A stretch of 64,000 nt of DNA from NCBI RefSeq assembly GCF_000337375.1, contig NZ_AOJG01000040.1, positions 15,792-79,791 on the forward strand, in the 5' to 3' direction. Below the pieces are notes generated by a model. That model was given only the letters and a program-made list of their open reading frames with translations. It ran no database searches and was not told the origin of the DNA. Made by a program: the position numbers and the translations under genes. Source of the DNA: Halorubrum lipolyticum DSM 21995 (GTDB taxonomy: Archaea; Halobacteriota; Halobacteria; Halobacteriales; Haloferacaceae). Shown here piece after piece: positions 1-45,980 of the stretch (position 1 is the stretch's first letter; each line of letters starts with the position of its first letter).

Positions 1-95
1 CCGCACCTGCCATTTATAAACGATCATTTCCGTCGCTCATGTCTTTTTAAATACGATCTTGCCACCACCGATCTGCAATACTCACTCCCGCTATC
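1..95 (-). mobile_element. Partial copy (left-edge) of a dispersed MITE-like repeat
   Basis: Read on the minus strand, this stretch begins with a terminal motif containing GATAGCGGGAGTGAGTATTG (near 76-95), then ATTTAAAAAG, GAGCGACG and GTTTATAAATG. The same ordered motifs with the same spacing open the two complete copies at 25427-25723 and 45398-45879. The element continues past the window edge, so its other end cannot be seen. It lies just downstream of, and outside, the ribonucleotide reductase gene. I see no coding potential. That it is mobile is inferred from copy number and inverted ends, not from a transposase. Confidence 0.75.
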
Positions 96-122
96 TCTCA
101 CGTCCGCGTCCGCACAGATCTC

Positions 123-128
123 AAAAAA
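123..128 (-). terminator. Oligo-T terminator candidate after nrdJ
   Basis: On the minus strand a run of six T follows a GC-rich stretch about 40 bases beyond the nrdJ stop codon. Archaeal RNA polymerase terminates at T-rich runs without needing a hairpin. It lies between nrdJ and the repeat element at the left edge. Confidence 0.45.
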
Positions 129-167
129 TCCCGGCGTCAACCGCTCGTTACCGCAGGCCCGATCCGT

Positions 168-25339: not shown

Positions 25340-25426
25340 GCGAGAATATATAAAGGGAAGCCGTTGAAATCCTTCGTCGACGATCCGTCCAGACCCGGCT
25401 GCGGTCAGTACGGACACAGCGGTGAA

Positions 25427-25723
25427 CGATAGCGGGAGTGGGTATTGCAGATCGGTAGCGGCGATACAGTATTTAAAAAGGGATGAGCGAGCGCGACGAT
25501 CGGTTATAAATGAACGAGGCGGTGGCGTGCGCCTGCGAGCGCCCGAAGGACGCGAAAGAGCACCGTTCGAGGGAGTCGATCGCCACAGGCGACCGACGAG
25601 GCTGGGGCTTTGGAGGTGTTCACCGAAGCGGCGTCGATCACCGATACACAGCCGCCAGCAACATTACTCGATCGTTTATAAATAACCGCTTCACCAATTC
25701 GCTATACCCGCTCCCGCAATCGA
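25427..25723 (+). mobile_element. Complete MITE-like repeat, copy B (about 297 bp)
   Basis: The left end CGATAGCGGGAGTGGGTATT (25427-25446, continuing GC) and the reverse complement of the right end (25702-25723) agree at 19 of 22 positions, forming terminal inverted repeats. Inside are TATTTAAAAAG, GGTTATAAATGAACG, GCTGGGGCTTTGGAGGTGTT (25601-25620) and TCGTTTATAAATAACC, all also found in copy C at 45398-45879. There is no transposase or long coding frame. I cannot see a target-site duplication. It fills most of the 480-base gap between the DUF5809-type gene and dpsA. Confidence 0.72.
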
Positions 25724-25821
25724 TCGAGAAGCGGTCTTCGACAGTCGGCTGTGTCTGACGAAAAAACGGGGAGATTCGGGGCCGCAACCGCGGGATACGG
25801 CTACCGGAAGGTCGCCGACGC

Positions 25822-45346: not shown

Positions 45347-45397
45347 GCGATCGGAGTTCGGTCCGAAGAGGCCGGTCGATGGGGACGGCTTCCCGAC

Positions 45398-45879
45398 CGA
45401 TAGCGGGAGCGGGTATTGCAGATCGGTGGTGGCGATCCAGAATTTAAAAGCACACGAGCGACAGCGACGATAGTTTATAAATGAACGTGGCGGTGGCGCG
45501 CCCCGGTGAGCGGCCCGGAAGGCCGCGAACCGACGGCGCGAGGGAGTCGCGAGCAGAGAGGGACCTCCGGTCCCTCATGAAGCCGGCGCGCAGCGCCGGC
45601 GACGAAGCGAGCGACGAGGTTGGGGAGGCGTGAGGCTGTGCGGTCAGGGTGGGACTCAAAGGGGCAGCCGGCGAGGCGGGCACAGGCGACGCAAGCACTG
45701 GAAGGAGCGAGCCTGCGAGCGACTGAAGCGCGCAGCGAGCGTGCGCCCGCCTCGCCGGCTGGGGCTTTGGACGTGTTCACCGTAGAGTCGTCGGTCGTTT
45801 ATAAACAGCCGACAGCAACACCACTCGATCGCTTATAAACAACCACGCCCCCAACGTGCTATACCTACTCCCGCTATCG
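45398..45879 (+). mobile_element. Complete MITE-like repeat, copy C (about 482 bp)
   Basis: The left end CGATAGCGGGAGCGGGTATT (45398-45417, continuing GC) and the reverse complement of the right end (45858-45879) agree at 19 of 22 positions. Like copy B it contains AATTTAAAAG, AGTTTATAAATGAACG, GCTGGGGCTTTGGACGTGTT and TCGCTTATAAACAACC. It is longer by about 185 bases in the centre, adding GGGACCTCCGGTCCC (45568-45582), GCCGGCGCGCAGCGCCGGC and a 16-bp stem (45666-45681 with 45745-45760). It fills most of the 634-base gap between the sugar dehydrogenase and the DsrE gene. No transposase is present. Confidence 0.72.
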
Positions 45880-45980
45880 CTCGCCGTTGCGTCCGTACCG
45901 ATCGCTACAGGGACGAGTCTCTCGGCGGTTGAGCGTTTCAACGGAGCGATCGACGACGAGAAACGGGTGGAAATCCGTCG

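Follow-up and report, generated by a model that had tools for sequence, protein, structure and literature searches.

The 64-kb window analysed here (the whole stretch of DNA) contains three dispersed repeats, copies A, B and C, and the question that this locus raises is what such repeats are. The initial annotation inferred that they move in the manner of MITEs and allowed as another possibility that they encode an RNA. The ordered blocks said to be shared by the three copies were all found at the coordinates given for them, and the 22-mers of copies B and C do pair at 19 of 22 positions in each, when read from the C preceding GATAG. Within the window GCTGGGGCTTTGGA occurs 2 times compared with 0.12 expected, and the 29-base end occurs 3 times compared with 0 expected, a value that no shuffle attains. 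The suggestion that three copies in 64 kb point to a high-copy family was borne out. With copy B as the query, a search of the host genome (G000, 3.43 Mb in 41 contigs) returned 106 BLAST pieces, which resolve into about 40 dispersed elements with copies A, B and C among them, each with a left and a right module on either side of a variable middle. At position 1 of the window (G000:C40:15791), as at many other loci in this genome, a single N is flanked on both sides by the same sequence of about 90 bp. These duplications are assembly-gap artefacts, which mimic tandem copies and double termini.

The 22-bp repeats had been taken for the ends of the element, a reading that has to be revised, since conserved sequence runs on outward for 50-70 bp on both sides. 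When the ends are aligned, the conservation outward of GATAGCGGGAG resolves into two types, which we have named S and K. Both terminate in GGCTCTGTTGAAAYCC, which forms 16-bp terminal inverted repeats, so that the 22-bp repeats turn out to be an inner pair on either side of the interior, referred to below as the cargo. Because the conservation continues outward to GGCTCTGTTGAAAYCC, copy C is placed at about 45347-45948 and copy B at about 25357-25793. With up to 2 mismatches allowed, the 16-mer has 40 matches in the host genome and its reversed control has 0. The 22-bp inner repeats were not seen in the ends of the partner insertion sequence and of the cassettes with other cargo, both described below. 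No transposase gene lies inside the elements, as had been claimed; the roughly 600 bp are taken up by the cargo. The features of the three copies are as follows, in window coordinates.

45347..45948, + strand: copy C, whole cassette, with a K-type end on the left (outermost terminus eroded) and an S-type end on the right; its flanks abut in the relative G016 at 45347/45958.
45933..45948, - strand: copy C right terminus, type S, a relative of GGCTCTGTTGAAATCC (CGCTCCGTTGAAACGC on the minus strand).
45398..45419, + strand: copy C inner inverted repeat, left 22-mer, pairing at 19/22 with its partner.
45858..45879, - strand: copy C inner inverted repeat, right 22-mer.
45474..45480, + strand: copy C TTTATAA, TATA-box-like, 16 nt before the cargo start.
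45490..45787, + strand: copy C cargo, the full structured element from GCGGTGGCG to GTGTTCACCG, supported by covariation.
45651..45664, + strand: copy C block GGGACTCAAAGGGG, 5' side of the central CAAAG/CUUUG helix.
45758..45771, + strand: copy C block GCTGGGGCTTTGGA, 3' side of the central helix.
25357..25793, + strand: copy B, whole cassette, with an S-type end on the left and a K-type end on the right, both termini diverged.
25357..25372, + strand: copy B left terminus, GAAGCCGTTGAAATCC.
25427..25448, + strand: copy B inner inverted repeat, left.
25702..25723, - strand: copy B inner inverted repeat, right.
25519..25627, + strand: copy B cargo remnant, its second half gone between two GGCTGGGG repeats, with the join at about 25600-25607.
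1..160, - strand: copy A, left part only, the rest cut off by the window edge; the remainder is at G000:C40:15304-15791, beside an assembly gap.

The complete copy A corresponds to about G000:C40:15304-15886. Copies C and B both sit between convergent reading frames.

A comparison of the ends with the transposases of the same genome, which had been proposed as a check, identified a likely partner. The GGCTCTGTTGAAAYCC 16-mer brackets a transposase gene at G000:C39:63803-64621, whose product belongs to the IS5 family (NF033579 transpos_IS5_2, 2.4e-62, above the cut-off; PF01609) and has homologues in 45 of 53 genomes of the genus. At the loci of this insertion sequence in related species, one end adjoins the transposase start and the other is of K type in many copies. 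The K sides of the insertion sequence and of the RNA cassettes are 0.77 identical over 60 bp, compared with 0.57 after shuffling. Perfect 8-bp duplications surround copies of the insertion sequence at eight loci in related species; no target duplication was found around the copy in G000 itself. We presume that the partner belongs to the ISH1-like group of IS5. It is most likely that this transposase moves the cassettes in trans, an inference from the shared ends, to which it would bind in order to mobilise the cassette. A likeness of GGCTCTGTTGAAA to IS26-type ends had raised IS6 as a candidate partner, which was rejected: PF13610 has no match in G000, and complete IS6 copies do not carry such termini at their ends. 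A 1610-bp element in a Halovenus MAG (L326:5659-7269) shares the 16-bp termini of the cassettes and is flanked by a perfect duplication, TCAGGTTT; it was left untyped because its gene is masked.

Do these elements in fact move? A search for target duplications made without fixed ends gave no excess, and an excess emerged once the termini were known. Among the elements with the best-preserved termini, the flanking 8 bp agree at 8/8 positions in L389 (AAATCGGT), at 7/8 in L411 and L407 and at 6/8 in L401. Over all rows with acceptable termini (18 rows representing about 10 elements, many entered in both orientations), the mean agreement of the flanks is 4.33 of 8, versus 2.40 for mispaired flanks and 1.9-2.6 for frame-shifted ones. 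Duplications are seen only in well-preserved elements; copies B and C are too diverged to show one. For copy C the evidence comes instead from an empty site, the test for mobility that had been suggested. In G016 the genes that flank it lie side by side, and the flanks are 90% and 95% identical to those in the window. The same site is nearly empty in G017 and G038, with only 12-14 bp between the flanks, and near-empty sites were also found in G017 for the cassette copies L062 and L068. A search of the genomes of the genus, likewise proposed at the outset, found the 29-base end in 20 of 53, with a patchy distribution: 49 matches in G037, 24 in G014, 16 in the host genome and 0 in most others. 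An 8-bp duplication on insertion, taken together with this patchy amplification, implies that the cassettes are mobile DNA. The inference of MITE-like mobility is thus supported by the 16-bp termini, the target duplications, the empty site, the uneven copy number and the resident IS5-family transposase. These repeats meet the criteria for MITEs, in that they are short, multi-copy, without coding capacity for a transposase and equipped with the termini of a known transposon. With mobile insertion cassettes (MICs) they share the bracketing by inverted repeats of an insertion sequence, GGCTCTGTTGAAAYCC being common to the cassettes and to the IS5-family transposase gene, as well as the lack of a transposase gene and, in the best-preserved elements, the target duplication. 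A MIC also has a passenger gene; cassettes with other cargo hold protein genes, whereas for the RNA cargo its standing as a gene depends on covariation and a TATA box. We conclude that they are transposase-less cassettes of MITE/MIC type, presumably moved in trans.

Cassettes of G000 with the same kinds of ends also hold small protein genes, one of them TrmB-like. Around three of them, with ORFs of 136, 88 and 63 codons, no duplication was found.

G000:C41:15332-16357 (= L140:1432-2458): cassette with a TrmB-like regulator gene, duplication 7/8.
C31:29945-30715, C8:19568-20037 and C28:46329-46743: small-ORF cassettes.

The cargo of the cassettes in question is of another kind, a folded element of 200-500 bp. 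From its 5' side the order is TTTATAA, 13-17 nt, GCGGTGGCGCG, a hairpin, GCGCGAGGGA, a second hairpin and GAGGCTGGGGAGGYGTGAGG, followed by a linker, GGTGGGACTCAAAGGGGCAG, a long hairpin and CTGGGGCTTTGGAGGTGTTCACC. In an independent MAFFT alignment of 14 copies, 14 of the 28 base pairs have changed on both sides, and 0 of 500 shuffles scored as high. With 38 copies drawn from many genera, 24 of 28 pairs have changed on both sides (again 0/500 shuffles), there are 187 cells compared with 54 after shuffling, and pairing reaches 94% compared with at most 43% in slid versions; this second alignment was made to fit the model and so leans towards the structure. In Halorubrum the central helix reads CAAAG/CUUUG, elsewhere GAAAG/CUUUC. 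An outer helix of GCGGTG with CACCG, taken from one fold, was discarded, as by eye its 3' side changes without a matching change. The TATA box stands at a fixed spacing in 22 of 28 cassette copies and in about half of the others, versus 0.4% of random points.

Several variations on this architecture were noted. In several genera the cargo is often repeated in its 3' part (GGCTGGGGCTTTGG.. with TTTATAA), as tandem units of about 50-70 bp; examples are L050, L055 and L059 and, outside the genus, the loci L252 and L261. At L129, L130 and L264 the cargo contains a further domain of two hairpins whose linkers are conserved (GTGGTTCG..CGTCATCACGA..CGAACGACAG), and this domain was found in two different haloarchaeal families. 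At L299, L309, L325, L326 and L328 two GGTGGGACTSAAAGGGGC motifs stand head to head, about 45 bp apart. In the genus g71 (L240, L249, L256, L264) a palindrome like TTTACAA..TTGTAAA replaces TTTATAA upstream of the cargo and is possibly an operator. The halves of the cargo were also found separately, at L246, L254 and L260 in G179 and at L255 and L263 in G175. Because the first and second halves occur apart, the cargo may consist of two separable modules.

The cargo is not confined to the cassettes. In the host genome GCTGGGGCTTTGG has 98 exact matches (reversed control 1) and GGGACTCAAAGGGG has 99 within one mismatch (control 0), counts that exceed the number of elements because the cargo also exists outside cassettes. 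The GCTGGGGCTTTGGA block, which the initial annotation had listed as part of the repeat, is indeed present in the copies and belongs to a cargo far more widespread than the transposable element. We count about 95 copies of the cargo in this genome, of which about 40 lie in cassettes; assembly-gap duplications account for some copies that appear to be additional. An RNA model built from 14 copies (R1) found copies in 47 of the 47 genomes of the genus sampled in a search of the class, as well as in another 34 genomes of that class. No well-assembled genome tested in the genus lacks the cargo. Targeted scans gave 78 copies in G179, 78 in G226, 32 in G072, 20-30 in four genomes of other families and single matches in others. 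The core motif is held by Halorubrum, Haloparvum, Halobaculum, Haloarcula and Haladaptatus, and further by Natrinema, Halostagnicola, Halorussus, Halopiger and Natronococcus. Among 393 sampled genomes of the phylum, none beyond this order gave a match to the cargo. The 18-base core motif was met with in one Bacteroidales MAG contig (L280), probably by chance, since the RNA model has no match there. It is absent from a viral contig collection, plasmid and phage records being outside the scope of that search, and a viral vehicle for the cargo was set aside on this ground only. In Rfam no family scored above its gathering score and none was plausible by E-value, and no description was located in the open-access literature, in agreement with the earlier remark that no described family matches. 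When 48 cargo copies from the host genome are placed on a tree, 6 changes suffice to explain which of them lie in a cassette, versus 13.5 for shuffled labels. Branch support in this tree is modest and the alignment takes in some bases after the cargo. The result would fit a cargo captured mainly once between the ends, then spread along with them, with a few further events. Outside cassettes the cargo seems to persist in many haloarchaeal genera by a route of spread that is undetermined.

It remains to consider what the cargo is. The suggestion of an RNA-encoding repeat is supported by the covariation across genera and by the TATA box at fixed spacing, in the absence of any RNA data. We regard the RNA reading as likely, not as shown; transcription, which might start from the cargo's own TATA box, is inferred, and any function is hypothetical. 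Mobility and an RNA product are both supported and do not exclude one another. Our main reading, to which we assign a probability of roughly 75%, is that the repeats are non-autonomous cassettes of the IS5 family (MIC/MITE type) with a structured cargo, most likely a noncoding RNA gene. On the broader proposition, that the cargo represents an undescribed, large and modular class of haloarchaeal noncoding RNA, present in tens to about 100 copies per genome and spreading in part with IS5-type cassettes and in part by independent means, we are evenly divided.

The pattern of base changes also bears on a different explanation, in which the cargo is a hairpin repeat at the DNA level, REP/BIME-like or made of nested short mobile repeats, and the cassette a plain MITE that acquired it. 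Template switching, recombination or the use of cruciforms would then keep the arms complementary. Almost all pairs are Watson-Crick with few wobbles, as this explanation would have it, and small perfect hairpins are nested in the cargo loops; in Haloquadratum, short mobile repeats (SMRs) are known to insert into palindromes (PMC3119063). The copy number is high, and many genomes lack the cargo. In a count of unique contexts there are 45 G-U versus 23 A-C, with no single hairpin significant. Because this G-U signal is weak, a DNA-level hairpin repeat is still possible. We nevertheless consider it unlikely: the linkers that separate the hairpins show strong conservation on one strand from genus to genus, the stems change freely, a TATA box lies upstream at fixed spacing, and G-U outnumbers A-C in 2 of 3 hairpins.

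We are also doubtful that the cargo moves by itself, as an RNA-based or single-strand element (retroelement-like, or akin to the guide RNAs of TnpB) with the IS5 cassette as only a secondary vehicle. High copy numbers in other genera, where the cassette ends were not examined, would agree with such self-mobility, as would the occurrence of 3' tails as tandem units and, at some G017 sites, of lone tails without a body, which are equally explained by deletion between repeats. No partner protein was noticed beside the copies in an unsystematic look, and the copies outside cassettes show no defined insertion motif or duplication. Large structured RNAs in many dispersed copies are known in the HEARO/omega RNAs of IscB and TnpB; the cargo, in contrast, has no Rfam match, and the cassette ends are of DDE type with 8-bp duplications.

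That the repeats are instead fixed, immobile features of the host, for instance transcription terminators at convergent gene pairs, is very improbable. The position of the clusters would agree with it: within 800 kb of G017, with gene calls that rest on a simple GC-position rule, 31 of 33 fall outside the called genes, and 14 of 33 separate convergent genes, as do 46 of 218 intergenic gaps. Orientation relative to co-directional neighbours shows no bias (6 same, 7 opposite), which speaks against a terminator role, and the 8-bp duplications and empty sites, with 0 to 49 copies between species of the genus, already contradict a fixed feature.

The main reading, a cassette of IS5 type with a structured cargo, has precedents in part. 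MICs such as MIC231 of IS231 and the qnrD and qnrS2 mic elements are a known arrangement, mobilised in trans by an IS transposase, and share with the present cassettes the IS ends, the lack of a transposase, a passenger between the ends and the target duplication (PMC3913671). Unlike MICs, the present cassettes are archaeal, reach tens of copies per genome and have as passenger a structured noncoding element, not a protein gene. The MITEs of Haloquadratum walsbyi are likewise haloarchaeal, shorter than 1 kb and without transposase, have the terminal repeats of known transposons and show target duplication, and have mostly been described as noncoding with no conserved function (PMC3119063). Here, in contrast, the interior folds, the fold is conserved and it is also present independently of MITE ends. 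Insertion sequences of the IS5 family that make 8-bp duplications share with the cassettes those duplications, the 16-bp termini and the K-type end; the cassettes differ in lacking the transposase, and the S-type end replaces the transposase-side end. The Haloquadratum SMRs share inverted repeats, high copy number and palindromes nested in palindromes, and are about 110 bp long with no target duplication (PMC3119063), whereas our cassettes measure about 600 bp and have 8-bp duplications.

As a whole, the mobile part is a mobile insertion cassette of IS5 type with a noncoding cargo, and the cassette type itself was already known. The cargo, whose fold is conserved across haloarchaeal families, which reaches up to about 100 copies per genome and which is missing from Rfam, may be a new class of RNA, although there are no expression data. 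Insertion cassettes have been known as carriers of protein genes; a cassette able to transport and amplify a structured noncoding element would give RNA genes an additional means of spreading.
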